DNA of 64,000 bases from Calothrix sp. PCC 7103. GTDB taxonomy: Bacteria > Cyanobacteriota > Cyanobacteriia > Cyanobacteriales > Nostocaceae. Within the stretch, counting starts at the first letter, position 1; the number at the start of each line of letters is the position of its first letter. The notes under the pieces are model-generated. The model did not search any database. It saw nothing but the letters and a program-made list of their open reading frames with translations, and was not told where the DNA came from. The position numbers and the translations under genes were made by a program. The stretch covers positions 924,904 to 988,903 of the forward strand of contig NZ_KB217478.1 of NCBI RefSeq assembly GCF_000331305.1, in the 5' to 3' direction. Shown here piece by piece: positions 44,313-60,912 of the stretch.

Positions 44313-44331
44313 AAACTTTTTTATACAAAAC

Positions 44332-44362: not shown

Positions 44363-44380
44363 AATTTCCGTATTTAGAGG

Positions 44381-45971: not shown

Positions 45972-46291
45972 TATTCACACTCCACCCATGAGATTTTCGC
46001 TTCATTCTCGCAAATAGCGGAAACTTCACCCCGATAAAGATTCATCAAGTTTATCTCAAATGTTCCTTCAGGGTTTAGTGGGATACCTTTATCGTAGTCT
46101 CCATTATTTCTGTTGCCAAAAAAGAAAGTTACGGGTGACTTTGACTTGACAACAAAACTCGCGTACATTCGATTAGGATTTGCTGGTAATATTGTCGCGG
46201 GCAAGCCTTCATTTAATGCAGTTACACCGTTTTTAGCTTCGGTAAAGCTAATCAAAGTCCCGTTTGATTGTAACGATACGTTATTAATCAT
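45971..46291 (-). CDS. Small beta-sandwich phage protein, paralogue
   Basis: 106 residues with ANPNRMYASFVVKSKSPVTF then FFGNRNNGDYDKGIPLNPEG. Same architecture as the 45666 gene. One-base stop/start overlaps on both sides show a tightly packed operon. Probably a minor virion protein. Confidence 0.55.
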   Translation of the reverse strand: MINNVSLQSNGTLISFTEAKNGVTALNEGLPATILPANPNRMYASFVVKSKSPVTFFFGNRNNGDYDKGIPLNPEGTFEINLMNLYRGEVSAICENEAKISWVECE

Positions 46292-46731
46292 TACGCTATT
46301 GCATCAATTTTTGATTCAAGTCTAGAAAGAATCGTTTCTATTGGTTCGTTCTCTGTTCCAACGTATTTATAGATGGAATAAGAAACATCTTTAAACCAGC
46401 TAGGAACGGTAAATGTAATTGCGTACTCTGGGGTAAGTTTTGGCAGAATTATTAAGGTAATTCTATTTAGCCAAATTCGGCGCCTGCTACCATCTGTATC
46501 TGGGTTGCCCCCAACGGTTAAACCAAGGCGTAAGCGTTGGTTTAGAAAGCCCGCAAACTTCCAAGTATCTTTTGCAGTGCTTGAAGTTGCGTAGATAGCG
46601 ATAACGTGACGGTCGAGTAAAATTGGTACTGTAATTTCTGGAATCGGCGCCGTAATCCCAGCAATTGTCACGGCGCCTTGGGAGATTGAATAAAACAACT
46701 CCCAATTATCGGAGTTGTTTAATTGGAGCAT
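46291..46731 (-). CDS. Hypothetical virion-operon protein
   Basis: 146 residues, beta-rich; NSDNWELFYSISQGAVTIAG and RLGLTVGGNPDTDGSRRRIW. A C-terminal helix (IETILSRLESKIDAIA) may oligomerise. The family was not recognised; the operon context suggests a structural role. Confidence 0.5.
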   Translation of the reverse strand: MLQLNNSDNWELFYSISQGAVTIAGITAPIPEITVPILLDRHVIAIYATSSTAKDTWKFAGFLNQRLRLGLTVGGNPDTDGSRRRIWLNRITLIILPKLTPEYAITFTVPSWFKDVSYSIYKYVGTENEPIETILSRLESKIDAIA

Positions 46732-46732
46732 G

Positions 46733-46981
46733 TTAAAGCATCAAGAGTCTTACGTGTTCCTCAACTTCCTCTACAAATAAGTAGGGGTCAATGCCAAATT
46801 CTGCCAACAGGTCGAAATAATAATTGTCATCGATAAGCCCGGTTGTCCAGTCATTCGCAGCACCGTTGATTATAGTCATACCGCGAATTGTGCTGTTATC
46901 CGCGTCACTATCAACGGATACTGTTAGTAAGTCAGTGATATCTTGAGGGACTAAAAGCCCCCCATTACTTGCTGCGAACAT
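46733..46981 (-). CDS. Hypothetical virion-operon protein
   Basis: 82 residues, acidic (DNTIRG... DLLAEFGIDPYLFVEEVEEH). No motif recognised. One-base overlap with the larger gene upstream. Confidence 0.45.
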   Translation of the reverse strand: MFAASNGGLLVPQDITDLLTVSVDSDADNSTIRGMTIINGAANDWTTGLIDDNYYFDLLAEFGIDPYLFVEEVEEHVRLLML

Positions 46982-47574
46982 TACAGAGCCTCTGGCACAA
47001 ACCGGAACTTAGACGCAAGAGCATTTGCACTACCAGTGAATAGTGCTTTAAATTCTGCCTTTTCTTTGATAGCGGCAATTACAGTGTCCTGGGTGTCACC
47101 GACTAATTTCTTACCGAATACGCCAGTAACACTGTCGTTTTCGTGTCTGTAGTACAAGCGTCCAGTGATGCGTGAAGCTTCTTTAGTCGTAGCAGTACTC
47201 ACGCGCTGGATAATAGTTAATTTAGCGGGTTTAAACTTTTTGACGCCTTCCAATATATTGGGGTTGGTAAGCGCTCCGACTTCTGCTTGTGTAAAAGTAT
47301 ACTCACCCAATATCCCGCGCAGTGTAGATGCTAGTGTTCCACCGCGTCCGGTCTGGGTATCGGCAATTAGTCGGGCAGGGAGGTAAACTAAGGCGCCTGT
47401 AGAAGTGAACGGTACAAGGTAGCCTGGTACTCTATCAGTTTTTACTTTATTAGCTGGTGTGGTAACGGCTGCGTAAGCGGCTTGACGTGCTGCGGTATCT
47501 TTGTTCAACCACAACATATACTTTGCGTGGTCAGCTGCGAGGCGAACGCCACGAGAAATATCTGAATATCCCAT
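46981..47574 (-). CDS. Hypothetical virion protein, major-structural candidate
   Basis: 197 residues. It begins with a helix (SDISRGVRLAADHAKYMLWL), followed by mixed alpha/beta sequence and KKFKPAKLTIIQRVSTATT. No recognised domain. It heads the lower block of the operon behind a gap with a hairpin, so it may be expressed at a high level; a capsid or tail-subunit role is only a guess. Confidence 0.45.
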   Translation of the reverse strand: MGYSDISRGVRLAADHAKYMLWLNKDTAARQAAYAAVTTPANKVKTDRVPGYLVPFTSTGALVYLPARLIADTQTGRGGTLASTLRGILGEYTFTQAEVGALTNPNILEGVKKFKPAKLTIIQRVSTATTKEASRITGRLYYRHENDSVTGVFGKKLVGDTQDTVIAAIKEKAEFKALFTGSANALASKFRFVPEAL

Positions 47575-47635
47575 TTTAATTATTTTTGGTTATTTCTGGT
47601 TTTGCATAAAAGCTTGTAAGCCCTACTGTAACTGA

Positions 47636-47697
47636 GTTTTTAGCGTGGTTTGTTTATCGGAAACATATAATGTTTCCTATAGTTTTTAGCGTGGTTT
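47636..47697. terminator. Hairpin between direct repeats in the structural operon
   Basis: GGAAACAT-ATA-ATGTTTCC (47659-47677) forms a perfect eight-base stem. It is flanked by two exact copies of GTTTTTAGCGTGGTTT (47636 and 47682), the second overlapping the stop codon of the 47696 gene. It could attenuate or process the operon mRNA. Confidence 0.5.
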
Positions 47698-48529
47698 ACA
47701 AATTAACAAGTGGTTTGTACCGATAAGTCGTATCAATGAGGAATACCGGGTTTGGCTCTCCCGGTATCAATGCGTATGCGTACCGAAAACGAACATTTAC
47801 CACACGACGGTAAGCGCGCTTTTTACGAGTTTTACCCATAATTACCTGCGTACCACTCGATAAGCCAATAGTTGATGGTTTTTTTGGGTTATGTACTGTA
47901 ATATTTTGTTCGTTGTATGGCACGTCAATAACATTACATATCCGCTTATAAATATCTATTGCATCTGCTTCGCTATTGGTTAAAATCCTTCTGCCATTAG
48001 AGAATCCATTCTCAGTATCTTTATAGCTAACTGCGACATTCCCCTTTGTTAATATTATTCCTTTCTTTGCATCAACAAATTGCACTTTTATCTCATTCGC
48101 AATTTCTATTAATTTGGTTCGCAAATTAGCTGATGTGTTTTCAAATTTCATTAATCTAACGCTATATTCTGCATCAGCCCTGCTTGTTTCGTTCGGTACT
48201 GATTGTGCGTCCTGACTAAAATAAAACACTATTTTGGGATGCCCGATAACTGGAGGCTCTTGATTCTCTTTGCTTCCATAGAATAAAGTAAGCCCATTTT
48301 TAGAATATCCTAATACGTCATAAAGTAAATTATGGCGTAAGTTTGTCATCTCTGTTGTGTCCTCTTCTGTGTGAGTACACGCCACTCTTAGCTGACTTCT
48401 GCCATCATTTAATGATGGTTCCCAATTGTCTCCTAAGTCTCCAAAAAAACGAGCAACTTCTTTGTTAGCAGACTTTTTAAATACGTCTTGTAAAAACTCT
48501 TTAGGGTTGTAACCTTCTGGTAATGCCAT
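47696..48529 (-). CDS. Hypothetical virion-operon protein
   Basis: 277 residues. Contains LPEGYNPKEFLQDVFKKSAN at the start and a basic C-terminal part (MGKTRKKRAYRRVVNVRFRY). No signal peptide and no recognised domain. It is separated from the 48532 gene by only two bases, so the two are coupled. Confidence 0.5.
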   Translation of the reverse strand: MALPEGYNPKEFLQDVFKKSANKEVARFFGDLGDNWEPSLNDGRSQLRVACTHTEEDTTEMTNLRHNLLYDVLGYSKNGLTLFYGSKENQEPPVIGHPKIVFYFSQDAQSVPNETSRADAEYSVRLMKFENTSANLRTKLIEIANEIKVQFVDAKKGIILTKGNVAVSYKDTENGFSNGRRILTNSEADAIDIYKRICNVIDVPYNEQNITVHNPKKPSTIGLSSGTQVIMGKTRKKRAYRRVVNVRFRYAYALIPGEPNPVFLIDTTYRYKPLVNL

Positions 48530-48531
48530 AA

Positions 48532-51225
48532 TTAATCATTCGCATTAAATATATCATCGGGTAAAATATTTGATATTCTTGAAGCTAATTTAGAAGCTAA
48601 TTCATCCGCTTTAAGCTTTTCTGGTTCAGGTGTTTCGATGCCTTTATTTTCAGGTTTGTTGTCTTCCTTAATAGCTTTAACTAGTTCTGTATTCGCGGTT
48701 TGTAATTCAGTGACAGCATTTATTACGTCAAGGGGTGCTTGCGTGACTTGCTGTATTGTTGATGCACCTTGCTGCAAATTTTCTAAGGTTTGAGATATGC
48801 GATTAAACTTTGGTTGGGGATTCATCCATCCGTAAGCTGTTTCTAGTACTTCCCCACCTTTCTTAAGCGCATTACCTATTTTCCCGGTATAGCTTCCTAT
48901 TAACTCCATCCCAGAAAGAATGGTATTACTAATATTTTGAAATGAGTTTAATACGTTCGTAGTTGCTTGATAGATTCTATTAGCTTTTGCCCATATTTCC
49001 GTCAGTGTCGTGTAGTTTTCAGCACCAACAATACCTTTTACTAAATTTTCAATTGAAGAATTAATAATAGTTCCGAGGTCGAACGCTTGCCCAGAGTCAT
49101 CTTTTAGCCCAATTAAACTAAGTACATTTGAAAATGCACCTAGTAATGTTGTGCCGATTTCTCGGCTCAACATTAAATGATTTTGCACAGTAGCCGCAAA
49201 CGTTAAAACATTTAAAGCTCTGTCTAATTGCAGCCACTTAAAACCATTAATTAATTTACCCGCGATTCCACCGCCTGGTATCTGTGGTCCAAGTTTCGTA
49301 TTTATTACACCTAAAAGAGCTAAATCAACGCCTTGCAATAAAAGGTTTAATTGGTCAAGTTTATTGTTATTATTGGTCGCTTGGTCGAGAATTTTCTGTT
49401 GACAGCTTGAGCATCCATTGGGTGTGGGTGGTGGTGGTGGTGGTTCGGCTTTACGCGGTGGTCCGAAAGGGAATGGCGCAGGAAAACCGGGAGGTTTTGG
49501 CACTGGTGATGGTGAGGGACTTGGGCTAGGACTTGGACTTGGTGATGGTGAGGGACTTGGGCTAGGATTTGGACTTGGTGATGGTGAGGGGCTTGGGCTA
49601 GGACTTGGACTTGGTGATGGGCTAGGGCTAGGACTTGGTGATGGGCTAGGACTTGGGCTAGGGCTAGGGCTAGGACTTGGTGATGGGCTAGGATTTGGAC
49701 TTGGTGATGGGCTTGGGCTAGGGCTAGGACTTGGACTTGGTGATGGGCTAGGATTTGGACTTGGTGATGGGCTTGGGCTAGGGCTAGGACTTGGACTTGG
49801 TGATGGGCTAGGACTTGGTGATGGGCTAGGACTTGGGCTAGGGCTAGGGCTAGGACTTGGTGATGGGCTAGGACTTGGGCTAGGACTTGGACTTGGGCTA
49901 GGGCTAGGACTTGGACTTGGACTTGGTGATGGGCTAGGACTTGGGCTAGGCGGTGGCAACGGCACTGGTATTGGGGAACCATCTGGTTGCTCAAGTCTTA
50001 ACAAGTCAATGCTTGATAAACCATCTGTCTCGTTACCTAGCGTTACCCAGCGTGGCTCTACAGTAAAATCGTTCCAACCTCTGCCATGACATAGTATTTG
50101 AATTAATTTTCCTATCCCTCCAGCCTGAGTTTGATAATCAATTACTCTGTACGCATAAAGTGGACCTCTAAATAAGTAACCATTATTGGGATTAGATGTA
50201 TCTGGAGAAACCCTACCTCTTGCATCTGTGTAATTAAAAGCAAAATAAACTCTATAGTAAGCACCAATCTCTTGTCCGTTAGGAGGTACTTGAGTAATAG
50301 GATTTGATGGTGGTGCTGACGGATTAGACGGCGCGTCAATGCCAGGTGGATGAGGAAAAAGCAAATCAGCGATAAATCCACCAGCCATGCTGCCAACTAA
50401 TCCACCAACAAAAGCGCCAGGTGGACCACCCAACGCACCACCAATAGCACCCCCAAGAATACCCCCAACGACACCACCACCAGCCCCAAACAATGCAGCA
50501 GTTGGGGGCTGTCCTCTTAAGGAGCGAATTGCAAAATCAGCGGCACCACCAATTAAAGGTCCAGCTAAACGCGCTGCGGGAGTTGGTGGAAGACCTGGAG
50601 GTAGAGCGGGTTTTGGTGGTGGGGGTGAAGGTTTCGGCGGTGGGAATCCTGGAAACTTATTAACTGGAGGCGCCTTAACTGCTGTTGGGGCCGTTGCACC
50701 GCCACCATTGCCAGGAGGAGGGGAGGCAGAAGTAGGTCGATTAGCTGTTGGTGTTGGCTTGGGAGGGTTTCCCGCTTTAGGTTTTGGTTGAGTTTTTTCG
50801 CCAGGTGGTTTATATCGATTTAAAGCTTCTCTATCAGCAGCTTGCCTACGTTGTTGTATTGCCTCTTCAGGAGATGGAGTAGGTTTATATTTAGCGTTCC
50901 TTGCCTCTTCTCTAGACTTTCTTATTGCCTCTTCAGCATCTTCTATTAATTGTTGCTTTCTGAGTTTTTGTTTATTTTGGATATCCGCAGTATTTGCGCT
51001 GTAATCTTCATTCCAAAATTCAGCACGGTCTTTAAAAGTTTGTTTGATTGCAGCATCCGCGTCTGCAACCTGTTGAGCTTTATTAGCTAGTTGTTTTTTC
51101 TGAATATCAGCAGAATTTATTTTCTGTTGCTCCCACATTTGAAGCTGCTCGGCATAAGCTTTCTCTTGCGCTGCTTGCTTCAAAAGTTGTTGCATTAAGT
51201 TGCTATTCTGCTCAAAATCAGCCAT
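48532..51225 (-). CDS. Large proline/serine-repeat structural protein
   Basis: 897 residues from ATG 51225, one base after the upstream stop. Domains in order: charged coiled coil (about 1-150); Pro/Ala-rich linker; a glycine-zipper hydrophobic block near 220-300 ([18 protein letters not shown]), which could insert into a membrane; a beta domain (about 310-420); a Ser-Pro dipeptide repeat of about 155 residues (DNA 49500-49965), broken only by rare Asn-Pro; a CSSC pair near 620; and a long helical C-terminus. The layout resembles a virion spike, tape-measure or membrane-penetration protein. An oxygenase of the prolyl-hydroxylase type is encoded 430 bp away. Confidence 0.6.
49500..49965. repeat. 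Ser-Pro coding repeat, G-rich on the plus strand
   Basis: Degenerate 6 bp units (GGACTT / GGGCTA / GGTGAT on the plus strand) encode (Ser-Pro)n on the minus strand. Longer duplicated blocks such as GGGCTAGGATTTGGACTTGG recur at about 49686 and 49746, showing expansion by slippage or unequal exchange. The G-rich strand could form quadruplexes. Long open frames on the other strands here are repeat artefacts. Confidence 0.85.
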
Positions 51226-51226
51226 T

Positions 51227-51526
51227 TTAAGCCTCAAAGATAGATGGAATAGTAACAGTGCTTAATGATTGTGCGTAATTCCACATTCCACCACTTCCGG
51301 TCAAATAATCTTTGCTCATTTCAATAGAGACTCGTCCGAGAAAGCGATATTTCTTATCACTTTCAACATAAAAAACACCCGCTTGAGCCGCTCTTTCTGT
51401 AGAACCAGTACCTTCGATAACCACTAAATCTGAATTGATATAAGAAAGAGCAAGGATTGCCCATGTCGCCAATTCTTCAAGTGAATTAACGTTATCAGGT
51501 AATTGAGTTTTAGCAAAGGCTGTCAT
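51227..51526 (-). CDS. Hypothetical protein at the head of the structural operon
   Basis: 99 residues; TLPD... [20 protein letters not shown] then [20 protein letters not shown]. No family recognised. It is the first gene of the minus-strand cluster, so the operon promoter should lie between 51527 and the divergent oxygenase gene at 51670. Confidence 0.5.
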
Positions 51527-51669
51527 TTTTTTACTTTTTAAACATAGTATTAAATAGATTTTTAAGGATTTTGTATTATTTGTAAAGTGCCTGTTTTAGG
51601 TTAAACAGGCACTAGCAACCAAGCATTAAAAAAGTTTAGACTACAGGACAAATAAGACAAGGCAAGGTA

Positions 51670-52266
51670 ATGAGTATAGTTACTTCAAAATATGTATTAA
51701 TTAAAGAGTTTTTAACACAAGAACTAAATGAAGAATTAGTAACATACACACTAAACAATGAATCAAGCTTTGCACAACGATTGATTACTCCCGGTTATCC
51801 GCAACAATACAGCTTTGGAGCATCAAACGGATTTGATTTTTGGAAGTTGCATATTATTGAACAAGTAAAGCTACGCTTGCCCGAAGTACTTAAGATATTT
51901 GATATAGATTTTAATATTGGGGAAATTGAATCCGACGTTAGTGGCTTTCTTGATATGGGATTTTTGGGAAGTCACAACGATACATTCTGTGCAAGTAGCA
52001 GAATACTTACTTTTGTTTACTACTTCAGTAGAGAAGCCTTTAGCGGAGGACAATTAGCTCTATACGATAGTGAGGTTGATTGCTTTCTTCGAGATAAACA
52101 AGCTAGGTCATGCCAGTTAATTAAACCAGTAAACAATTCTTGTGTTATATTCCCGTCGAGATGCTGGCATGAAGTCTTACCAGTCTCATCTGACTTTAAA
52201 ACTTTTCCAAATAACTATTTTAGGGGTGGCAGATTTTCTATTAGTGGATGGATAAACCGCAACTAA
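51670..52266 (+). CDS. 2-oxoglutarate/Fe(II) oxygenase, prolyl-hydroxylase-like
   Basis: 198 residues. The iron site is HND (in GFLGSHNDTFCASS, HxD) plus a distal His in FPSRCWHEVLPV, and the 2-oxoglutarate arginine is in FRGGRFSISGW. The order and spacing match the PKHD/prolyl 4-hydroxylase family; FSGGQLALYD fits the core strand. All ligands are present, so activity is expected. It is divergent from the structural operon with its Ser-Pro-rich protein, making proline hydroxylation of that protein a reasonable hypothesis. The substrate is not known from sequence. Confidence 0.8.
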   Translation: MSIVTSKYVLIKEFLTQELNEELVTYTLNNESSFAQRLITPGYPQQYSFGASNGFDFWKLHIIEQVKLRLPEVLKIFDIDFNIGEIESDVSGFLDMGFLGSHNDTFCASSRILTFVYYFSREAFSGGQLALYDSEVDCFLRDKQARSCQLIKPVNNSCVIFPSRCWHEVLPVSSDFKTFPNNYFRGGRFSISGWINRN

Positions 52267-52458
52267 AAACAAGGAAGAGTAAAAACGTATAAAGAATAGG
52301 TGAAGTACCGCTTCTATGTAAATCCGGTACTTTACGGATGTATTGAAAGTATTGCTAAATATAAGATGTAGCGATTCCACTTAATAGCTATAAAAAAAAG
52401 ATACCGGAATAACCTGTTGCAGAGGTTAATCCGGAATATTATCTCAAATCAAATTTAT

Positions 52459-53040
52459 ATGAAGAATAACCGCTATGGTCAATCCGCGATACTGTCCGAC
52501 GGGGAATATTTTAAAATTCGTCAACAAATCAAAAGTAAAAAGTACCAATTGCTTTTAGATTTAGCTTGGTTCACGGGTGAAAGGTGGGGTGCATTGGTAC
52601 AACTCAAATTTGAGGACGTTTACCTTCCCGACGGAAAACCTTTAGATACTATTACCTTTCGGGCTGTAACTCGCAAGGCATCACCCGACGGAAAACGAAA
52701 AACTAGGCAAGTTCCCACGCACCCAACCCTAAAAAGTTTATTGAGAGATTACAAACCTCTAACGAGCAGCGGGTATTTATTCCCTGCTCAAAATCCTGAA
52801 AACCACATGAATTTAAGACTTGCAGATAAAATCTTGCGCTCTGCCACAGAGCGTGCGGGCTTAGGGGAAAAGGGAATAAGCACCCACAGTACCAGGCGCT
52901 CGTTTATCACCAAGCTACACAGCAAGGGAGTTGACCTTTACACAATCCAACGCATAACAGGACACCAGGACTTAAAAGCCTTGGGAAGATACGTAGAAAT
53001 TGACACTGACAAAATTACTGGCGCCATAGCTCTTATATAA
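52459..53040 (+). CDS. Tyrosine recombinase (integrase)
   Basis: 193 residues from ATG 52459; a TTG at 52417 is an alternative. Catalytic set: Arg in TGERWGALVQL, HSTRRSF (HxxR), His in ITGHQDLKALGRY, and the nucleophile Tyr in GRYVEIDT. It is essentially a catalytic domain with little or no arm-binding or core-binding domain, so shorter than typical phage integrases. It probably integrates the element. Confidence 0.85.
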   Translation: MKNNRYGQSAILSDGEYFKIRQQIKSKKYQLLLDLAWFTGERWGALVQLKFEDVYLPDGKPLDTITFRAVTRKASPDGKRKTRQVPTHPTLKSLLRDYKPLTSSGYLFPAQNPENHMNLRLADKILRSATERAGLGEKGISTHSTRRSFITKLHSKGVDLYTIQRITGHQDLKALGRYVEIDTDKITGAIALI

Positions 53041-53054
53041 AGAATTAAACAAGT

Positions 53055-53612
53055 ATGAATTTACTAAAATTTGCTATTGACTTGGGACATGGAGTTGGAC
53101 AGGACGGCGGAGCTGTTGAAATTATGGCAGAAGAGGACGCAATAAATGAAGTCGGTAAGCGAGTGATTAACAAGCTAAAAATGCTTGGACACTCGGTAAT
53201 TGAAACCCGTCCAAGCAAAGCATCAAGTGTTAGGGATTCATTGAAGCAACGTTGCCAAACCTCTGACAACGCCAAAGTAGATTTTTTTGTATCCCTACAC
53301 GCTAACGCGGCGCCCAATGAGGTAAAAGGTAAAGCAAATGGTACAGAGTGTTACGCAATTAGTGAAGACGGTCGGCAATTAGCGTTTAGGATTTGTAGAG
53401 AAATAGCTGCACTCGGATACTTTAACCGAGGCGTAAAAAACGGCAATCATCTATACGTAGTTAGGGAAACCGAGAAACCGGCGGTACTCATTGAAATGTT
53501 TTTTCTAGACTCTAAAAAAGACTGCTTATTGTACGACCCCGAACACATGGCTAATGCAATAGTGCTTGGATTGTGCGGTAAAACTCCCAATATTGCCGAC
53601 AAAGCGGCATAG
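53055..53612 (+). CDS. N-acetylmuramoyl-L-alanine amidase (endolysin)
   Basis: 185 residues, Amidase_3 fold. Zinc ligands: His in FAIDLGHGVGQDGG, Glu in the MAEEDAINEV helix, His in FFVSLHANAAP; the catalytic Glu is in VLIEMFFLD. There is no signal peptide or wall-binding domain, as for phage endolysins that need a holin. It starts 14 bases after the integrase stop and ends at a strong terminator. Confidence 0.9.
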   Translation: MNLLKFAIDLGHGVGQDGGAVEIMAEEDAINEVGKRVINKLKMLGHSVIETRPSKASSVRDSLKQRCQTSDNAKVDFFVSLHANAAPNEVKGKANGTECYAISEDGRQLAFRICREIAALGYFNRGVKNGNHLYVVRETEKPAVLIEMFFLDSKKDCLLYDPEHMANAIVLGLCGKTPNIADKAA

Positions 53613-53640
53613 TTGATTAGAGAATATCAAACTTATGAAA

Positions 53641-53680
53641 AAGCCGACTCCCCTCCCAGTCGGCTTGTTTATTATTTTCT
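53641..53680. terminator. Bidirectional terminator after the endolysin gene
   Basis: AAGCCGACT, loop CCCCTCCC, AGTCGGCTT, then TGTTTATTATTTT. The complementary strand also ends in a T-run (TTTTTC), so it can serve both the amidase and the convergent 53672 gene. Confidence 0.85.
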
Positions 53681-54637
53681 AGAGTTATTGGACTTCTTTA
53701 CATACTCCACGATTTTTGTAGGTGTTGCACCTGCATCAATTAATTCCAGTACTTCACGGCGCCTCAACTTCCCATTGTTCGATGAAACCGAACCAAGATG
53801 AACCTTGCAAATTTTCCTACCTATCATCCAACAATAACGATAGTAAAAATGTTTTCTATTTCCGCGCTTTACCCAGTATTGTTCAATCCAATGGGTGTTT
53901 TGTTTGTTTTCTGGTTTTTCCTTACCGTATGGGTACTGATTGAAGTTCGTAGATGGTAATTGCTCCCAAAAACTTTCATGTAAAAGAGTGCTTTTTTGAG
54001 GCGCCTCGTCCTCGTCGTTGTCCCCACAGTGTTCGGGAGCAGATTTTAGAGATTGAAATTGCTCCCGAACACTTTCCTGTAATGGAGTGGAGTTTTGCGT
54101 TAAAGCACTCCCCTCAATATCCCCACAGTGTTCGGGAGCAGATTCTAGAGATTCAAGTTGCTCCCGAACAGTTTCGTTGTTTTGTTTTGCTGTCCGTGCT
54201 TGAATTTGTTCGTGCTGTGCTTGAATTTGCTCGTTTTGATAGCGACCATAGATTACAAAATATAGCTCTTCTCGAATATCTACACCCTCAATGTGTTCGG
54301 GAGCAGATTCTAGAGATTCAAGTTGCTCCCGAACACTTTCCTGTAATGGAGTGGAGTTTTGCAATAAAGCACTCCCCTCATTACTCAAAGTGTGTTCGGG
54401 AGCAGATTCTAGAGGTTGAAATTGCTCCCGAACACTTTCCTGTAATGGAGTGGAGTTTTGCAATAAAGCACTCCCCTCATTGTCCCCACAGTGTTCGGGA
54501 GCAGGTTTAACTATTTCATCCCAGTAGGGGTCATGTACTATTTTTGTTCTATAGGTTGGGGCAATATTAAACAATGCTAGCTGTGCATGACACTCATCAA
54601 AATGTCCTGCGCTCCCTTTGTTTTTGGAATTATTCAT
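53672..54637 (-). CDS. Repeat-containing hypothetical protein with basic C-terminal domain
   Basis: 321 residues. The first about 215 consist of four to five copies of a 33-residue unit (SAPEHCGDNEGSALLQNSTP, LQESVREQLE), one interrupted by an EQIQAQHEQIQAR insert. The C-terminal 75 residues (HWIEQYWVKRGNRKHFYYRY then VKKSNNSRK) are basic and aromatic, probably nucleic-acid-binding. The DNA of each unit contains perfect 12 bp hairpins (54030-54503). Function unknown; possibly a replication or partition protein with its own iteron-like sites. Confidence 0.6.
   Translation of the reverse strand: MNNSKNKGSAGHFDECHAQLALFNIAPTYRTKIVHDPYWDEIVKPAPEHCGDNEGSALLQNSTPLQESVREQFQPLESAPEHTLSNEGSALLQNSTPLQESVREQLESLESAPEHIEGVDIREELYFVIYGRYQNEQIQAQHEQIQARTAKQNNETVREQLESLESAPEHCGDIEGSALTQNSTPLQESVREQFQSLKSAPEHCGDNDEDEAPQKSTLLHESFWEQLPSTNFNQYPYGKEKPENKQNTHWIEQYWVKRGNRKHFYYRYCWMIGRKICKVHLGSVSSNNGKLRRREVLELIDAGATPTKIVEYVKKSNNSRK
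54020..54505. repeat. Tandem hairpin repeat, period about 100 bp
   Basis: Arms TGTTCGGGAGCA and TGCTCCCGAACA pair perfectly at 54030/54060, 54129/54159, 54294/54324 and 54393/54423, with a fifth half at 54492. A second stem, GGAGTG...CACTCC, lies between most units. All are in frame within the 53672 gene. A diverged unit precedes at 53955-54025. Confidence 0.85.
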
Positions 54638-54680
54638 ATAACAATCGAAGTTAGGTTTTTATGTTGAATGCCCTCTATGT

Positions 54681-55415
54681 TTAGAGGGTTTTTTGTTGCA
54701 ATGAATCGAGTTCGTTGAACATCGTATCTAAAGACACCCCGCTAATATCATCATAAGGTGTTAATCCAGAGGCTTTGAATACAATTGCTAAGTAATTACG
54801 TCGTGATTCCCAATACCTGTTACGTAGACACTCTCTCATCCAACCTTCAGGGTTTTCGATATGTTTCCTAGCTTGTCTAATTTGAAATAAGACTATTGCA
54901 GCCCTAATCTCCCAGTGAGGACGGCTCAATACTTCAGTCTCCTTAGTATCAAATTCAATACCATTTGATGCCAGCGTCTCTTGATTAAGCTCTAAGTCAG
55001 AATGCTGCTGCTGCATAGAACTGGCGACCGCATTTATATCATTTGATGCCTGCAAAGTGAAACTAGAGTTGCAATGTTGTAACTTTTTTTTCTTAAGTGG
55101 AATTAACCATTCTATTGGTCTTAAAACGACTCGGTATATCTTCCAACAGAATTTTTTCAAGACACCAACCACACCTAAACTCTTAAGTAGTTCAAACATT
55201 TTCTTTAGGTATTGGTGGGTGTATTGTTTACCCCTCCACTTCTCAACCCAAGAGTTAAACTCGCTTAAATCAGGTTCGCATTCCTCTTTTAATTCTGCTT
55301 CCCAAAGTAGCCATTGCCATAATCTCTGTGCAGCATGAGGCACGTTGTTCTCTAGACAGAAGATTTCGTGCTGTTCAGTCCAAAGGTTCTTTTGTTTTGT
55401 TGATGTTTTAGGCAT
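54681..55415 (-). CDS. Replication-initiator-like / winged-helix protein
   Basis: 244 residues from ATG 55415 (MPKTSTKQKNLWTEQHEIFC). The N-terminal part (LWQWLLWEAELKEECE, then YTHQYLKKMFELLKSLGVVG) looks like a helical winged-helix DNA-binding domain. The C-terminal part, after a Gln/Ser linker, has RAAIVLFQIRQARKHIENPE then GWMRECLRNRYW, resembling helical replication-protein segments on cyanobacterial plasmids. Downstream of the iteron-bearing region, it is a good Rep candidate; family assignment is tentative. Confidence 0.5.
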   Translation of the reverse strand: MPKTSTKQKNLWTEQHEIFCLENNVPHAAQRLWQWLLWEAELKEECEPDLSEFNSWVEKWRGKQYTHQYLKKMFELLKSLGVVGVLKKFCWKIYRVVLRPIEWLIPLKKKKLQHCNSSFTLQASNDINAVASSMQQQHSDLELNQETLASNGIEFDTKETEVLSRPHWEIRAAIVLFQIRQARKHIENPEGWMRECLRNRYWESRRNYLAIVFKASGLTPYDDISGVSLDTMFNELDSLQQKTL

Positions 55416-55508
55416 AATAGTGATAAGTTCAAAGAAACAAAAACCATTAAAGCTGCTCCCTTCACATGTACTAGAGATGCTTTTTTGGTTTTTTTTTGCA
55501 ATAAAATA

Positions 55509-55535
55509 AACCGCCACGTCCATTGACCGGCGGTT
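55509..55535 (-). terminator. Terminator overlapping the RHH gene stop
   Basis: On the minus strand AACCGCC, 13-base loop, GGCGGTT then TATTTTATT; the stem includes the stop codon at 55534. Confidence 0.65.
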
Positions 55536-55872
55536 ATAAATCTTGGTTCTCTTCTTCTACTAGCTCATTGCGTAATGATTTTAGCTGAGAGAATTTAGAC
55601 TCAAGTTGTTTTATTTCTTGCTTCTTTGCTTCAATCTGAATTACGCACTCGCTGATAAGCTGGTCAATGACTTTCCCAGTAACAACTTTTGACTTTTCGG
55701 TATAGAGTTTTGTCTCGCTATCGTTTCTATCAACTCGGAGCGACTCAACCCCAATTGAGAGGCTTTCATGTCCAGGTGAGCTATAGCCGTAAGTGTCAGA
55801 GACATATTCACTCTCCCCTTCGGCTCGTCGTAACGCCCGTGCTTTTTCTTCATTATCTAAAGTTGATTCCAT
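55534..55872 (-). CDS. Ribbon-helix-helix regulator with coiled-coil tail, in two overlapping frames
   Basis: Two same-strand frames overlap. Frame one (55641-55853, 70 residues) contains a CopG-like domain, RVNMSLTLTAIAHLDMKASQ then LGLSRSELIETIAR. Frame two (55534-55872, 112 residues) has a nondescript first half but ends in a coiled coil (IQIEAKKQEIKQLESKFSQL). A shift from frame one to frame two near 55690 would give a normal RHH plus coiled-coil protein of about 105 residues. Either a mutation or a programmed shift. Four repeated sites just upstream suggest autoregulation. Confidence 0.6.
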   Translation of the reverse strand: MESTLDNEEKARALRRAEGESEYVSDTYGYSSPGHESLSIGVESLRVDRNDSETKLYTEKSKVVTGKVIDQLISECVIQIEAKKQEIKQLESKFSQLKSLRNELVEEENQDL

Positions 55873-55873
55873 A

Positions 55874-55974
55874 TCTTACACAAGAAGTTTAACATTTCTT
55901 ACACAACAAGACTTGATAATCTTACACAAGATGTTATCATAATTTCAATCCTACACAAGATTGTGTGTAGGATT
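55874..55974. promoter_or_regulatory. Operator or iteron array TCTTACACAAGA
   Basis: TCTTACACAAGA at 55874 and 55920, TCTTACACAACA at 55897, TCCTACACAAGA at 55949: starts are spaced 23, 23 and 29 bp, about two to three helical turns. The last is part of a near-perfect palindrome, AATCCTACACAAGATT then GTGTGTAGGATT. They lie immediately upstream of the RHH gene and in the divergent interval before 56151, so they may be repressor operators, replication iterons or both. Confidence 0.75.
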
Positions 55975-56150
55975 AACGAGAAAACTTGTATACGACCGAT
56001 AGCCGCTGACTAGTGGTTTATCCCGCAGCGCGTCTATACATTGAAAGTATCGAACAGCCAAAACCCTTGCTTTATCTACGTTGTGAGCAATGCCTTAAAC
56101 AAAAAAATCGCAGTAAACACCATTAACACAGGAGGTATTCAATAAGTTAA
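55975..56150. other. Leader of the rightward operon
   Basis: Non-coding. A strong AGGAGG occurs at about 56131, but 15 bases before the ATG at 56151, which is unusually far. No other structure recognised. Confidence 0.35.
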
Positions 56151-56516
56151 ATGTCAGAAAACACGGTATTAAATGGCAATAGAGACGCCGTAAACAGTAC
56201 CAATAAGCCAGATAAAAAGCCTAAGAAAGCGAGGTATCTACCTGGTTTACCTATAGCAAGCAGCGCAAAGGATACCAATAAAGGTGTTATTGAGGTGGCA
56301 GTTAATAGAGCGCCTGCGGAGTTTTCAGCACTTGACTTATACGAATTATTCTCGACCGTTGAGGACGGCAACGACGTGATGATTAAAGTCACCTGCTCAA
56401 AAGCAGCTAGGTTGTCTGACGGCAAGCCGTTTTTAACAGGAGGGGGTCGCGTTTACCGAGTCAACTACCTCAGTTTCAAGCCTATTAGTAATAGCGAAAA
56501 TTCCAAGCCAGCATAA
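56151..56516 (+). CDS. Hypothetical protein, possible single-stranded-DNA-binding type
   Basis: 121 residues. A basic N-terminal third (NKPDKKPKKARYLPGLP) precedes a compact beta-rich domain (GVIEVAVNRAPAEFSALDLY then DVMIKVTCSKAARLSDGKPF). First gene of the rightward operon next to the presumed origin. Size, position and basic N-terminus suit a replication accessory or ssDNA-binding protein, but no OB-fold motif can be shown. Confidence 0.5.
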   Translation: MSENTVLNGNRDAVNSTNKPDKKPKKARYLPGLPIASSAKDTNKGVIEVAVNRAPAEFSALDLYELFSTVEDGNDVMIKVTCSKAARLSDGKPFLTGGGRVYRVNYLSFKPISNSENSKPA

Positions 56517-56569
56517 TGATTGATGCGCTATGCCGGCTATTAGTTCACTCACTGGGAGTTACCTAAATA

Positions 56570-56757
56570 TGACAGATAAGTACATTGAAAAGCAACTAAA
56601 CCAATACAATCAGTACGATTCTCAAGAAATCAAAGACGATGCCTTGTATAGATTAGGAACTTATCTAGAGGTTATAGAGGTTGATAGCGCAAAATTAACA
56701 CCCGAACAGCGTGAAACCGTTATTAATGCGGTAGAAGAGGTGAAAAGAAATGGCTGA
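56570..56757 (+). CDS. Hypothetical small protein
   Basis: About 62 residues from ATG 56570 (MTDKYIEKQLNQYNQYD); an earlier start at 56530 is possible. Acidic and helical, ending LTPEQRETVINAVEEVKRNG. The stop overlaps the next start by eight bases. No family recognised. Confidence 0.5.
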
Positions 56758-56959
56758 TATCAACCAAGCTGTTTACAATGCAAGTCTTGAAGCGCTTGTT
56801 AGTGCAGGTGTCCCAGAGCCACTGGCGGATGCCGCTTCTAGAATAGTTGCTAGCGACGATGAAACTCAACTGGGTTTGGGTCGTAACGATGCTGATATAC
56901 AAGTTTGTCAGTCAGTTGCTCAAATTTACACACAACTGACTCAAGGAGACAGCAACTAA
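56750..56959 (+). CDS. Hypothetical small protein
   Basis: 69 residues, acidic and helical (ADINQAVYNASLEALVSAGV). One-base overlap (TAATG) with the following gene. Unknown function. Confidence 0.5.
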   Translation: MADINQAVYNASLEALVSAGVPEPLADAASRIVASDDETQLGLGRNDADIQVCQSVAQIYTQLTQGDSN

Positions 56960-57108
56960 TGAACGACGCTACTACTTTGTATTTAGTAGTAGCGGCCCTT
57001 GCTGCTACCACTTTTTTACAATTCGGGAAAAGCGAATTACAGGATAAATTGAACACCTGTAACTCCGAGTACAAGGGATTCAGGGAAGGGGTGATTTATG
57101 GAAAATAA
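56959..57108 (+). CDS. Small membrane protein preceding the ATPase
   Basis: 49 residues: an N-terminal hydrophobic helix (TLYLVVAALAATTFLQF) then a charged tail (GKSELQDKLNTCNSEYKGFR). Its stop overlaps the ATPase start by 11 bases, so the two are coupled. It may anchor or assemble with the membrane ATPase. Confidence 0.6.
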   Translation: MNDATTLYLVVAALAATTFLQFGKSELQDKLNTCNSEYKGFREGVIYGK

Positions 57109-58240
57109 CCGCTTACGCCGCATTGAATGGGTTGATTTAAAACTACCGTCCCTCAAAGACTTTGACCGCTTTTTTGGTTGGGCGGTTGGGAGAGTATGTT
57201 TTTCTGTTTGGCTGTTCGGGTTAAATACTATTCGCGTAACCTGCAAAGTAACTTTAGCGGTTATTGACCAGACGGAAAAGGGGACTTATCGACTACTCGA
57301 AGTTTACGAACAACTACCCCACATGGGGATAACAGAAGCTAAATATATAGATGCTTCTGTTGTCGAAGTTGGGAAAGTAACACCCATTACCGATATCATC
57401 ACCGCGATTGAAGGTAAGCAGCTGATGATAATTGGGGAGATGGGTACTGGGAAAAGCACCATTGCCCAGTACCTCGCTTACACCGTTGGTGGGAGGGTGA
57501 AAGTGTATGAGTGCGAAGGGACGCCCGACGATTGGGCGGGTTTAGAGGTAATTGGTAAAGGTGAAGATTGGGAAAGTATTAATCAAGGTATGCTTGCTGA
57601 CCTCGATGACCTATCAAGCCAAATGCAGTTACGCAACGAAAAGGGTGAATCCGCATTGAGCGGTACAGAAAAGGTGATTATCTGTGAGGAGTACCCGGAG
57701 TTGGTTTCCAAGGTTGAAGCGTCGGGTGAATGGCTAGAACGTCACGCGCGTAGAGGCAGAAAAGCCCGACGATTCACAGTTTTACTCTCTCAATACGACC
57801 GTGTAGCAGCTTGGGGAATTGAGGGGAAAGCCGACTTGGCTGACGCTTTTTACCGTTTACGGCTTGGTAAGAAAGCGGTTGCACACGCTAAAAGCTTGAA
57901 GCGTGAAGATTTAATTGAGTGGTTAAAAATTGACCGTTCACACTGTTTACTCGACGATGAGCCGTGTAAATTACCTGCTTACCGAGAGATGAAATCAGTT
58001 ACACAGCGGTTATTCTTAACCCCCGTTGATCAAAAATTGGTAACGTCTGAAACGACCGTACAGCAAGCATTTCAGCCGCCGGAGCCGCACCCGAACCAAG
58101 ATTTAGAAGCGCTCAAAAAAGCCGTAAAAGCCTGTGCTGACGCGGGTTTGAGCGATTCCAAAATCATTAAAGATATTTTGGGCTGTTCCGGCAATCGTTA
58201 CCAATCGGGCAAGCAACTGCTAGAAAAACTGAGGGGTTAG
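57098..58240 (+). CDS. Membrane-associated P-loop ATPase (FtsK/HerA/Zot-like)
   Basis: 380 residues. An N-terminal hydrophobic region (FFGWAVGRVCFSVWLFGLNT) is followed by Walker A GEMGTGKSTIAQYLAY (near residue 120), Walker B-like KVIICEEYPEL (near 190) and RRFTVLLSQYDRVAAWGI, a sensor-like strand. The C-terminal about 50 residues (ADAGLSDSKIIKDILGCSGN) look like a winged-helix or DNA-reading module. It could pump DNA: genome packaging in a non-tailed virus, filamentous-phage export (Zot-type) or conjugation. Sequence alone does not choose. Confidence 0.7.
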   Translation: MENNRLRRIEWVDLKLPSLKDFDRFFGWAVGRVCFSVWLFGLNTIRVTCKVTLAVIDQTEKGTYRLLEVYEQLPHMGITEAKYIDASVVEVGKVTPITDIITAIEGKQLMIIGEMGTGKSTIAQYLAYTVGGRVKVYECEGTPDDWAGLEVIGKGEDWESINQGMLADLDDLSSQMQLRNEKGESALSGTEKVIICEEYPELVSKVEASGEWLERHARRGRKARRFTVLLSQYDRVAAWGIEGKADLADAFYRLRLGKKAVAHAKSLKREDLIEWLKIDRSHCLLDDEPCKLPAYREMKSVTQRLFLTPVDQKLVTSETTVQQAFQPPEPHPNQDLEALKKAVKACADAGLSDSKIIKDILGCSGNRYQSGKQLLEKLRG

Positions 58241-58241
58241 C

Positions 58242-58460
58242 ATGAGCGACTATAAAAATCATTACTGGGTTAATTTTTCTTCGGACGAGTACCAGGACGC
58301 AACATTAATACATTCGACAGATAAAATCTATAACGATGCGAATGAATGGGCCGAGGACGAACAAAAAAACACAGGAGATACGGGGATTCAAGTATGGGAA
58401 TTTCAACAAGTACCTGGGATTGTAGCGGATGTTATTGACTTCTTTAGAGGTGAAAAATGA
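58242..58460 (+). CDS. Hypothetical small acidic protein
   Basis: 72 residues starting MSDYKNHYWVNFSSDEYQDA and ending VADVIDFFRGEK. Two bases after the ATPase stop and overlapping the next start by four bases. No family recognised. Confidence 0.55.
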   Translation: MSDYKNHYWVNFSSDEYQDATLIHSTDKIYNDANEWAEDEQKNTGDTGIQVWEFQQVPGIVADVIDFFRGEK

Positions 58461-58744
58461 AACCACCAATTGAACAAGCAAAAGAAAATATCTTAAAAGT
58501 ACTTCGGGAGAATAGCGGCATGGATGAAATTGTTTACCCATGCTTACCTGAAGACTTGGCTGATTACAGAAGCGCGCTTGATTTAGTTGAAGTGCAGCGG
58601 GAGTTTAGGCGCCGTGGTGTTAGAGCTAGAGCCGTAGATTGTCGAACAGTCCAACCACAGCAACCTCAAATAGTAATAGCAACTTACGATGGCGCTATAA
58701 ACGGGAATCTTGACAACTATCTAAAAAGCAAAGGACTTCAATAA
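58457..58744 (+). CDS. Hypothetical small protein
   Basis: 95 residues, alpha/beta, with SALDLVEVQREFRRRGVRAR then QIVIATYDGAINGNLDNYLK. Overlaps neighbours by four bases and one base. Unknown function; possibly nucleic-acid-related. Confidence 0.5.
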   Translation: MKPPIEQAKENILKVLRENSGMDEIVYPCLPEDLADYRSALDLVEVQREFRRRGVRARAVDCRTVQPQQPQIVIATYDGAINGNLDNYLKSKGLQ

Positions 58745-58992
58745 TGACAATATCTCAACTTGAAAAATGCCCAAGCTGTAACTCCACAAATACAGCATTT
58801 AATAATGAGTTTGGGTACCACCAATGCAATGAATGCGGCAATCACTGGGCACATGACAAAGATGACCCGGACTATGAAGAATTTATTATTGACGATGTAA
58901 TTCATTGCCCTAATTGCAATGCACCGTATCACGAAACATTGCCCGATTGGGTAGCTTTTAGGACTTGTGGGGAATGTAGGCATGAGTGGTAA
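58744..58992 (+). CDS. Double zinc-ribbon protein
   Basis: 82 residues with two CxxC...CxxC ribbons: CPSCNSTNTAFNN to CNECGNHW, and CPNCNAPYHE to CGECRHEW. Likely a small nucleic-acid-binding or regulatory zinc protein, as phage early operons often carry. It overlaps the next gene by eleven bases. Confidence 0.7.
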   Translation: MTISQLEKCPSCNSTNTAFNNEFGYHQCNECGNHWAHDKDDPDYEEFIIDDVIHCPNCNAPYHETLPDWVAFRTCGECRHEW

Positions 58993-59173
58993 AAAGCGGG
59001 AATTTGAAAAAGGTTACTACCCTTGCCCAATTTGCGGGAGAATGACCCTTCATGACTGGGTGTCACCAATGGACGTACAGGAATACGAAATTTGGGACTA
59101 TAAAAACCCAATTCCAGACGATATATTTGTTTGCTTAAAATGCCAAAAAGTTGACATCGATGACGAAGCCTAG
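58982..59173 (+). CDS. Zinc-ribbon protein
   Basis: 63 residues from ATG 58982, with YYPCPICGRMTLHDW and FVCLKCQKVDI forming a single four-cysteine ribbon. Last gene before the ribozyme region; 16 bases separate its stop from the first ribozyme stem. Confidence 0.65.
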   Translation: MSGKKREFEKGYYPCPICGRMTLHDWVSPMDVQEYEIWDYKNPIPDDIFVCLKCQKVDIDDEA

Positions 59174-59189
59174 ATTTTGGTTTGACTTA

Positions 59190-59265
59190 TAGTATCGCCT
59201 GACGAGCCGGTTAGCCCGCCGGCGAAACACTGCCCTCTCTGGTAGTGTAGCGACTTGGGCAACTA
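59190..59265 (+). ncRNA. Hammerhead ribozyme, type I
   Basis: All core elements are in order: CTGACGA (59199-59205), stem II GCCGG/CCGGC (59206-59210 with 59219-59223) around loop TTAGCCCG, GAAA (59224-59227), stem III CACTGCC/GGTAGTG (59228-59234 with 59241-59247, one G-U pair) around loop CTCTCT, then TA. Stem I is TCGC/GCGA (59195-59198 with 59250-59253), extended by TAGT/ACTA (59190-59193 with 59262-59265) across an asymmetric internal loop. That internal loop sits where loop II could dock. Cleavage is predicted after A59249. The conserved nucleotides match the family consensus without exception. Confidence 0.92.
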
Positions 59266-59454
59266 AGGCGCCAGTATCAACAAAAGTAACTTAGGGCTTT
59301 GATACCGAAGCAAGCTAAAGCTTTTATTATTTCGCAAGCTCGGTTACTAGTTGGTATTGCTCCTGCTGTCTTGAGAGTGAATTAAGCTCATCGGGCTTTT
59401 GGGTGATTCGCAGACACTCGCAGGATATTTTTTACGATTCGACCCGTAACACCC
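59250..59454 (+). ncRNA. Structured leader RNA, candidate IS110 bridge RNA
   Basis: No gene fits between the ribozyme and the recombinase start. Predicted stems: GTATCAA/TTGATAC (59274-59280 with 59299-59305) with an 18-base loop; AAGC-TAAA-GCTT near 59314; and a long arm made of GAGTG/CACTC (59375-59379 with 59415-59419), GAAT/ATTC (59379-59382 with 59406-59409) and AAGC/GCTT (59384-59387 with 59395-59398) with internal loops. IS110-group recombinases use bridge RNAs transcribed from the non-coding end upstream of the gene, which is this position and size. Assignment as bridge RNA is inference. Confidence 0.55.
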
Positions 59455-60651
59455 ATGACAAAACAATTAAGAATTTTGGGGCTTGACGTTAGTAAAGCCT
59501 CTGTTTCTGCTTGCTTGCTTGACGAGAAACCTAGCGAACCACGTAACTATTATTACAAATGTAAATTCCTAAATTTACCAGCTAACAAATCGGGAATAGA
59601 AGCATTGCTCGCACTCAATCCAGATGTAGCAGTATTAGAGCCGACCGGGAATAATTACAGCCAAATCTGGAAACACCACTTAACCAATGCGGGAGTAAAG
59701 GTATTGTTCGTCGGTCACAAAGAGCTTAGAAATTACCGGGCTTATCAGCTTAATCTACCCGACAAAGACGATAACGCGGATAGTTTAGCGCTTGCGTGTT
59801 ACTGGTTTGACTATCACCTTTCACCCGCGCGTTTCGTTGCTACCTATGATGAAAATATTAGTAAAATCCGAGAATTAATATTTAAACTTGAACACCTTAA
59901 CAGGCTACAAAACCCTGTTATCAATAGGTTACGTCAAGATTTAGCTCATCAATTCCCAGAAGTTGCATTAGTAAATTCCCGTCGCGGCAACGCTGGACTA
60001 GTACCGTTACTTTGGGGATGGGTCGCAGGTGAGAGGGTTTCTAAAAAGTACGATTATTTATATAGCCAGAGTATCGGCTTGGGTTTGACCGATTCGACGC
60101 GCGCGCGTGCCGAAATTATTTGCTCATTACAACGTCAAGAAATGTTAGTTGAGCAAGAATTACGGGAATTATTAAATAATCCTGCTTTCGAGTGCTACAA
60201 AAAAGTATTCGGGGTATTTAATTTTGGTGAGCGGTTAGCTTGGGTACTAATCGCTTACATTTACCCAATCGAGCAATTTTTGGTAGATGGTAAACCAGAG
60301 ATACGTATATGCAGGGGACGTAATTCAGGTAAACCAACCAAGCACTACTTGTCACTACGTAGATTCCAGAAAGTCTTGGGTGTGGCGCCTGTACAGGAAT
60401 CATCAGGAGATAAACGCGCTGTAAAAGCTCATAACGGCTCAAAGCTATGCCGTAAAGCCCTTTGGCAGTGGGTGTTTACAGCATTGGAACCAAAAGCGCG
60501 GCGCCGCAATACCGAGGTAATAAAATCACTATGCGACTACCTAGATAGAGAAAAATTAAGCGGTAAACCAGTTCGCTTGATTCGTTCGCGCGTTGCCGCT
60601 AAAGCTATTAAATTACTATTTCGTGAATTGACTAAACATGAATCAAATTAG
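59455..60651 (+). CDS. IS110-family transposase (DEDD recombinase)
   Basis: 398 residues. The RuvC-like N-terminal domain has LGLDVSKASVSACLLD (Asp), VAVLEPTGNN (Glu) and LPDKDDNADSLALACY (Asp-Asp), the DEDD set. The C-terminal Tnp_20 domain has FQKVLGVAPVQESSGDKRA, containing the catalytic serine, followed by KLCRKALWQWVF. The enzyme cuts and joins DNA through a serine and is guided by a structured RNA. Its 3' end overlaps a zinc-protein gene by 14 bases, unlike a free-standing IS, so it may be a fixed operon member. No terminal repeats were identified, which is normal for IS110. Confidence 0.88.
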   Translation: MTKQLRILGLDVSKASVSACLLDEKPSEPRNYYYKCKFLNLPANKSGIEALLALNPDVAVLEPTGNNYSQIWKHHLTNAGVKVLFVGHKELRNYRAYQLNLPDKDDNADSLALACYWFDYHLSPARFVATYDENISKIRELIFKLEHLNRLQNPVINRLRQDLAHQFPEVALVNSRRGNAGLVPLLWGWVAGERVSKKYDYLYSQSIGLGLTDSTRARAEIICSLQRQEMLVEQELRELLNNPAFECYKKVFGVFNFGERLAWVLIAYIYPIEQFLVDGKPEIRICRGRNSGKPTKHYLSLRRFQKVLGVAPVQESSGDKRAVKAHNGSKLCRKALWQWVFTALEPKARRRNTEVIKSLCDYLDREKLSGKPVRLIRSRVAAKAIKLLFRELTKHESN

Positions 60652-60865
60652 ATGTACTGACGTTAGTTTTTTAGTGCGACGTGAAGCCGGTCCAGGCTGT
60701 TTATGCTCACGCTGCTTACTTCCAATTTTTGACAAATTGATCAAAATTGTCCCAATTACCGACCCCGCATTAATGGCAGAAGATAGAGAGTGGCGTTATC
60801 ACTTGATGTGCTTGGACAAGCGCAAAGCCAATTGGGGGGAGAGTTACCAAAAGTTACCATTTTGA
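60638..60865 (+). CDS. Small cysteine-rich protein
   Basis: 75 residues with CLCSRCLLP and a later WRYHLMCLDKRK, giving a CxxC...HxxC zinc-binding pattern. It overlaps the recombinase gene by 14 bases, so they are coupled. Possibly a DNA-binding helper; no family recognised. Confidence 0.55.
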   Translation: MNQIRCTDVSFLVRREAGPGCLCSRCLLPIFDKLIKIVPITDPALMAEDREWRYHLMCLDKRKANWGESYQKLPF

Positions 60866-60881
60866 GGGTAAACGTTTACCC
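60866..60881. promoter_or_regulatory. Perfect palindrome GGGTAAACGTTTACCC
   Basis: A 16 bp perfect palindrome right after the cysteine-rich gene stop, preceded by two GTTACC direct repeats. It could be a terminator stem, an operator, or a site near the right border of the element. Confidence 0.5.
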
Positions 60882-60912
60882 TGTTATTAGAGTGAAATAA
60901 TAGAGGTTAACC

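Follow-up and report, generated by a model that had tools for sequence, protein, structure and literature searches.

A predicted hammerhead ribozyme at the bridge RNA of a 17-kb IS110-type element in Calothrix sp. PCC 7103

How is the 5' end of a guide RNA set when the guide lies far from the end of the mobile element that carries it? In the accessible text of PMC11208160, the guide of IS621 starts at a promoter formed when the ends join, in the excised circle of small IS110 elements. The window analysed here (a stretch of 64,000 nucleotides from Calothrix sp. PCC 7103) contains an IS110-type element whose guide does not lie beside the joined ends in the IS621 manner, the left end being 15.4 kb away from it (Table 1). 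With about 15 kb of cargo between left end and guide, a joined-ends promoter cannot start the guide directly, and from so distant an end it would first have to transcribe the cargo. A hammerhead ribozyme is predicted exactly at the 5' border of this guide.

Table 1. Positions in the window of the ribozyme, the bridge RNA and the element that contains them
Feature	Position	Strand	Remark
Type I hammerhead ribozyme (predicted)	59195..59253	+	Predicted cleavage between A59249 and G59250
Hammerhead stem I	TCGC 59195-59198 with GCGA 59250-59253	+	Window sequence
Hammerhead core segments	CTGACGA 59199-59205; GAAA 59224-59227; TA 59248-59249	+	
Hammerhead stem II region	59206-59223	+	
Hammerhead stem III region	59228-59247	+	
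Loop II GCCC	59214..59217	+	Predicted stem I/II pseudoknot with GGGC 59257-59260
Hairpin CTTGG-GCAA-CTAAG	59254..59267	+	Directly 3' of the predicted cleavage site
Predicted bridge RNA region joined to recombinase leader	59250..59454	+	Two-domain consensus fold; guide-target match
Left target guide with core, GATACCGAA	59301..59309	+	ATACCGAA matches left target flank 43824-43831
Right target guide, TATTATTTC	59325..59333	+	Reverse complement of GAAATAATA at 60894-60902
Left donor guide, GAGAGTGAA	59373..59381	+	AGAGTGAA is the element right end including core, exact
Right donor guide, GGGTGATTC	59401..59409	+	Pairs with left end GAATCCCCA: GAATC, one mismatch, CC
IS110-type DEDD recombinase, 398 aa	59455..60651	+	Pfam, NCBIfam
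Small cargo gene, 75 aa	60638..60865	+	Downstream of recombinase, inside element
Same-strand cargo run (AAA ATPase, zinc-ribbon, small proteins)	56151..59173	+	Ends 25 nt before ribozyme core
Other cargo	44581..55523	.	Uncharacterised proteins, 2OG-Fe(II) oxygenase, Xer-like tyrosine recombinase, amidase
Whole mobile element, 17,065 bp	43829..60893	+	Inserted within a dndD-like gene, at its 3' end

The hammerhead and its conservation

A sequence-only reading of the window had noticed a full type I core with three pairing stems, and the sequence is as it claimed. The core-plus-stem pattern occurred once in the 64-kb window and matched in 1 of 100 shuffles; stem I of the window site has 4 pairs. 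In the minimum-energy fold of the isolated 98-nt RNA, stems II and III were formed and stem I was absent (z = -1.1; 24 of 200 shuffles folded equally well). Since the isolated fold is weak, folding energy alone is insufficient to reveal the hammerhead, and it is comparison that reveals it.

Rfam at its gathering threshold gave no hammerhead match at the window site, where the sub-threshold match was to the type III hammerhead at 19.2 bits. The same threshold likewise gave none in 20 relatives, and none in 11 viral sources where the hammerhead pattern occurs, both stems being present in 9 of these. Rfam at the gathering score thus appears blind to the hammerhead subtype found here, so its null result at the window is uninformative and comparison was used instead. 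The expectation that a covariance search would pick up the site was borne out by the model built here (61.4 bits, the window site being part of the training set) and not by Rfam.

Relatives of the recombinase were present at 13 named loci in cyanobacteria, some of them fragments, and, across the order, in 131 out of 388 genomes. The comparison set comprised 79 recombinase loci with leaders, of which 73 were distinct 260-nt leaders and the rest copies. A simple scanner recognised the ribozyme in 53/79 loci and reading by eye added more. The ribozyme alignment, A2, contained 41 of 42 stretches; L034 was excluded, and loci with long inserts had been excluded beforehand. All 41 rows were identical at every fixed core position. 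In the position numbering of the core CUGANGA / GAAA / UH and of A15.1-U16.1, the variable positions were N7 (T, C or A), H17 (C in 36 rows, A in 5) and 10.1 (G in 39).

The stems varied and kept their pairing. Stems I, II and III were paired in 90.9%, 98.5% and 98.7% of cells, with double changes in 3/4, 4/5 and 4/6 pairs, respectively. Over the whole structure 91.3% of cells were paired, compared with 72.1% when shuffled, and 159 cells were changed on both sides against 42.0 in shuffles. The covariation score was 0.529 for the alignment, 0.158 when shuffled and at most 0.125 for slid versions. The open end of the three-helix fold is stem I, as in type I. The columns of the predicted loop II pseudoknot were paired in 75.1% of cells in the 41 relatives, with a double change in 4/5 pairs; in a looser shuffle test of this pairing the observed value was 5.20, the mean of 500 shuffles 4.90 and the largest 5.26. 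The columns of the post-cut hairpin were paired in 80.7% of cells, with double changes in 5/5 pairs, and this hairpin may be part of the ribozyme and not of the guide.

An invariant core with covarying stems marks selected catalysis, and by this comparison the window site is a hammerhead of the active type, with catalysis predicted. That the motif is a non-cleaving relic or a chance likeness is hardly credible: the missing Rfam match at the gathering score and the weak isolated fold would fit such an origin, whereas the invariant core with its covarying stems speaks against it and Rfam is also silent on other hammerhead-bearing sources.

With an E cutoff of 0.01, the covariance model from the 41 rows placed the ribozyme upstream of 69 of the 79 loci. 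Of these, 28 had no part in its training, copies or near-copies being among them. The search was given 83 sources; L011-L014, which are recombinase or leader fragments and gave no match, stand outside the 79. Among the 53 scanned relatives, stem I had only 2 pairs in 5 and an extra U stood at the base of stem II in 11. The 10 loci without a match include 3 with a truncated leader (L037, L057 and L079) and 7 that lack the ribozyme. The latter are six distinct loci, L009 (identical to L062), L056, L058, L063, L076 and L082, and all have kept the recombinase. The same ribozyme is thus present upstream of most related IS110 genes in the set, though not of these six. In a tree of 81 proteins, whose root is not fixed, the ribozyme-less rows needed 5 changes compared with a shuffled mean of 5.9, a placement that fits repeated loss. 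Three of these loci (L056, L076 and L082) have a long stable hairpin in the place of the hammerhead, seen there with no shuffle control; it is possibly another kind of processing site. At L004 (5459-5520, minus strand) Rfam gave a match just above threshold to NsiR1, a nitrogen-stress small RNA.

Searches that started from the ribozyme led back to the recombinase. Across the 11.6-Mb genome the model had no second match, even with E allowed up to 1. In 388 genomes of the class it matched in 34, with 49 places listed, and at 20 of the 23 newly examined places, some of them in genomes already known for the recombinase, an IS110 recombinase lay downstream. The stretch contained no IS110 gene at L137, L146 and L150, and at L146 the contig ends soon after the ribozyme. 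A phylum search matched in 21 of 292 genomes, many of them genomes of the class search, and the recombinase was present at 14 of 15 examined places, 8 of which were already known; the exception, L297, precedes a small gene and resembles hammerheads of the viral type. Intact-looking ribozymes with no IS110 gene in the stretch are thus those at L137, L150 and L297.

The bridge RNA and the ends of the element

The DEDD recombinase of the IS110 family that the sequence-only reading had placed about 200 bases downstream was confirmed, with its start at 59455. Pfam DEDD_Tnp_IS110 and Transposase_20 matched above cutoff, as did NCBIfam NF051857 (543 bits, cutoff 180), and NF033542 was below its own cutoff. 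In 13 rows D11, D106, D109 and S317 were invariant and E62 nearly so; we take these five residues to be catalytic. A sequence search found no solved structures for the recombinase.

The RNA between the predicted cut and the gene was aligned from 27 of 31 stretches (A3; L018, L026, L027 and L028 excluded). Its consensus fold has 35 pairs, 17 of them with double changes, in two domains with internal loops, and the first domain contains two short hypervariable stretches. In the window, the guides match the insertion site of the element over 8 nt on the left and 9 nt on the right. In a close relative in the same-genus genome G353, the left guide TAGGAAGAA has the same sequence as the left target, and at the right target GAATTAAAAA is matched by the right guide as its reverse complement.

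We then compared right guides with insertion flanks over the whole set. The motif was readable in 57/79 loci and a recognisable right end was present in 42, the first such site being used; L016 was dropped, its flank not starting with GAA, which left 39 distinct pairs. All 5 variable positions matched in 26 of these, and the others matched in 4 positions (9 pairs), 3 (2), 2 (1) and 1 (1). The single one-match pair is a tandem copy whose right neighbour is the left end of another element. The mean was 4.49 of 5, against 1.53 when shuffled and a largest shuffled mean of 2.05 in 1,000 shuffles, none of which gave more than 4 perfect 5-nt pairs. A left end that fits the left guide was found in 3 of the 16 stretches with a readable guide (G353, G303 and the window); for the other 13 it may lie outside the stretch. 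Judged by these matches, the RNA 3' of the predicted cut is a true bridge RNA, and the expected guide RNA beside the recombinase gene proves to match the element's own insertion site.

The core GAA of the element is at 43829-43831 and is repeated at 60894-60896. An empty site in two genomes of the same genus, G353 and G380, is identical to the joined flanks of the window over 28 nt on the left and 41 nt on the right. The interrupted gene (41786-43864) resembles dndD (NCBIfam TIGR03185, below cutoff); of the 197 residues used as query, most homologues align no further than residue 186-190, and it was uninterrupted in 10/10 homologues examined. Guide matches and empty site together delimit the element at 43829-60893. 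The sequence-only reading had located the ribozyme correctly and ended the feature at the start of the gene, whereas the whole is this 17-kb element. A left end near 44110, considered for its likeness to the left end in G353, was replaced by 43829 on the left-guide match, the homologues and the empty site. Likewise, variable upstream flanks had suggested a short insertion sequence starting at the ribozyme; this was rejected, as copies in the same genome are alike far upstream and true left ends were found.

On contig 10 of G353 (L092/L093) the element is duplicated in tandem; the two copies, of 15,393 bp each and identical in sequence, fix the element ends there and share a 4-nt junction, GAAT. 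The left end is 13.8 kb from the guide in this relative and 6.5 kb in G303, where the element is 7.8 kb.

Searches of protein families gave few names for the cargo. A protein of about 900 aa with a long proline-serine repeat is encoded at 48532-51237 on the minus strand, with very weak family matches. At 44135-44316, within the element and some 300 bp from its left end, there are three CRISPR-like repeats of 36 nt, separated by spacers of about 35 nt, and by eye such repeats are found at the left end of the G353 copy too. Two genes for putative Uma2-type endonucleases (60913-61566 and 62554-63189) lie just outside the right end. Elsewhere, a 20,352-bp contig (G588 contig 250; L285 with L286) has a hammerhead, an IS110-type gene and a 127-bp terminal repeat; from this repeat it is probably a 20,225-bp circle, either an excised element or a plasmid.

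Setting the 5' end of the guide

We consider it probable that the hammerhead excises the guide-recombinase RNA from the cargo transcript and sets the 5' end of the guide. Transcription would enter from the upstream cargo genes. The hammerhead would cut after A59249, the cargo mRNA would end shortly 3' of its final stop codon, and the bridge RNA would start at G59250, four nt 5' of its first hairpin. Self-cleavage would in this way replace the joined-ends promoter in fixing the guide 5' end, and a hammerhead at the 5' border of the guide would give a defined end whatever the promoter. We infer that cleavage takes place in the cell, that position 59250 becomes a 5' end through it and that it is of benefit to recombination.

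The upstream operon that had been supposed to lead into the ribozyme is consistent with the same-strand run of cargo genes, which has no predicted terminator. On the plus strand, no terminator-like site was found between 57842 and 60185, and a scan for sigma-70-type promoters found no promoter-like site from 58890 to the guide. The order of ribozyme, bridge RNA and recombinase gene is, by sequence comparison, conserved. In 50 distinct loci scored, the distance from the cleavage site to the recombinase match was 172-302 nt, a gap filled by the guide.

Many of the ribozymes lie beside a stop codon. Stops were counted in 59 loci; L047, whose core was not located, and loci with less than 300 nt upstream were excluded. 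An ORF of at least 50 codons ended at -60 to +15 of the core in 46/59 loci, compared with 134 of 1180 random positions. The stop lay at -10 to +14 in 43 of the 46 and was the core's own TGA in 12. Since any ORF open in that frame ends at the core TGA, 34/59 is the safer count. A stop codon beside the core speaks for a function in the cargo mRNA, or for a connection with translation, in addition to guide maturation, and these roles are compatible with each other.

Like the role proposed for prophage hammerheads, that of the present ribozyme could be mRNA processing, which would define where the cargo mRNA ends 3' or insulate the expression of the recombinase, with the guide 5' end as a by-product. 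The stops near the core (46/59 loci, or 34/59 on the safer count) are in keeping with this, and the accessible text of PMC3088659 describes hammerheads between prophage genes. A scan of viral contigs, covering at least 120 stretches, gave at least 156 pattern matches, at least 59 of them with both stems, and among the 156 matches listed only 2 precede an IS110 gene, which also favours mRNA processing; the hammerhead motif itself is not unique to these IS110 elements. The spacing argues the other way. Among the viral matches listed, 56 hammerhead leaders were considered, with a readable start in 37 and none in 19, and 30 of the 37 starts were at most 70 nt from the cleavage site, whereas in the IS110 loci the guide lies between the cut and the recombinase, which are 172-302 nt apart. 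Moreover, the covariance model detected no second hammerhead between guide and recombinase gene in the window. We regard mRNA processing as the sole role as unlikely.

A switch tied to translation has also to be weighed, in which ribosomes stopping at the ribozyme would keep it unfolded and the guide would be freed only under poor translation of the last cargo gene. The stops at -10 to +14 (43/59 loci, 12 at the core TGA) would suit such a switch. Against it, the tight packing may merely reflect compact elements and the window's own last cargo stop is 25 nt off the core, and we hold this explanation to be very improbable.

Returning to guide maturation, we put forward a broader proposal with rather more doubt than confidence: in a branch of IS110-type elements, promoter-set guide starts would have been replaced by ribozyme maturation. 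This would have enabled the elements to reach sizes of roughly 8-17 kb, cargo separating the guide from one end, and the release of the guide may depend on translation in the many members whose cut lies beside the last cargo stop. Within this joint reading, it is to the ribozyme maturation part that the evidence points. The idea that the ribozyme occurs only where cargo is present was dropped: in G313, which lacks the ribozyme, about 5 kb upstream of the gene is common to the copies, so that large neighbours do not always depend on the ribozyme.

Ribozymes and RNA guides in other systems

Like IS621, in the accessible text of PMC11208160, the window element has a DEDD recombinase, a guide RNA upstream of its gene and two internal guide loops, with target and donor guides that share the core. 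Unlike IS621, it is 17 kb long, and its guide, some 15 kb away from the left end, is preceded by a hammerhead; the sole ribozyme mentioned in that text is an engineered HDV. The seekRNA of ISEc11 and ISEc21 (PMC11187229) is a further case of RNA-guided transposition in IS110/IS1111, and the accessible text, unlike the window, has no natural ribozyme, HDV being used only as an engineered 3' trimmer. The window hammerhead shares its core, three stems, stem I/II pseudoknot and place between genes of one transcript with the type I hammerheads of bacteria and prophages in the accessible part of PMC3088659. The prophage hammerheads are thought there to process transcripts and, unlike that of the window, have no tie to a guide RNA in that part; the text of PMC3088659 has no occurrence of IS110 or cyanobacteria.

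Hammerheads with RNA guides have a precedent in VIPR, whose guide arrays are interspersed with hammerheads and for which small-RNA sequencing is reported (PMC13142463, a 2026 preprint, in its accessible part). Like the window, VIPR associates a natural hammerhead with RNA guides. Unlike the window, it consists of viral interference arrays with tandem-repeat guides, marked by a Vipr protein and GGY/NN tandem guides, and not of a recombinase bridge RNA. The arrangement at this locus, which the sequence-only reading had said would be new, appears to be so in the literature searched: no natural ribozyme at a bridge RNA or IS110 element was found there, including the accessible parts of PMC11208160, PMC11187229, PMC3088659, PMC12643982 and PMC13142463, most subscription papers being outside this search.

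If the proposed maturation is true, the guide of an RNA-guided recombinase would be matured by a natural self-cleaving ribozyme, the carriage of kilobases of cargo despite a guide far from the element end would be explained, and some bacterial hammerheads of unknown function would have a definite job. The loci also supply many natural and diverse pairs of bridge RNA and recombinase, some with large cargo, as wanted by bridge-recombination engineering, for which the hammerhead would be a ready-made 5' trimming device.

Relatives of the recombinase were found in plasmid records (2), and the protein search found none in viral contigs or phage records. The two viral-contig IS110 recombinases downstream of a hammerhead, met by pattern, share 27-32% identity with the others. 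A possible re-pairing of the cut strand once cleaved was seen in 28/50 IS110 leaders and 31/56 viral leaders listed, compared with 43% and 37% when shuffled, and was set aside as not convincing. Several hammerheads of the same subtype per contig are present in L188, L233, L216, L272 and other viral contigs, which may relate to prophage or to VIPR arrays; in L188 each hammerhead lies shortly 5' of a possible gene start.
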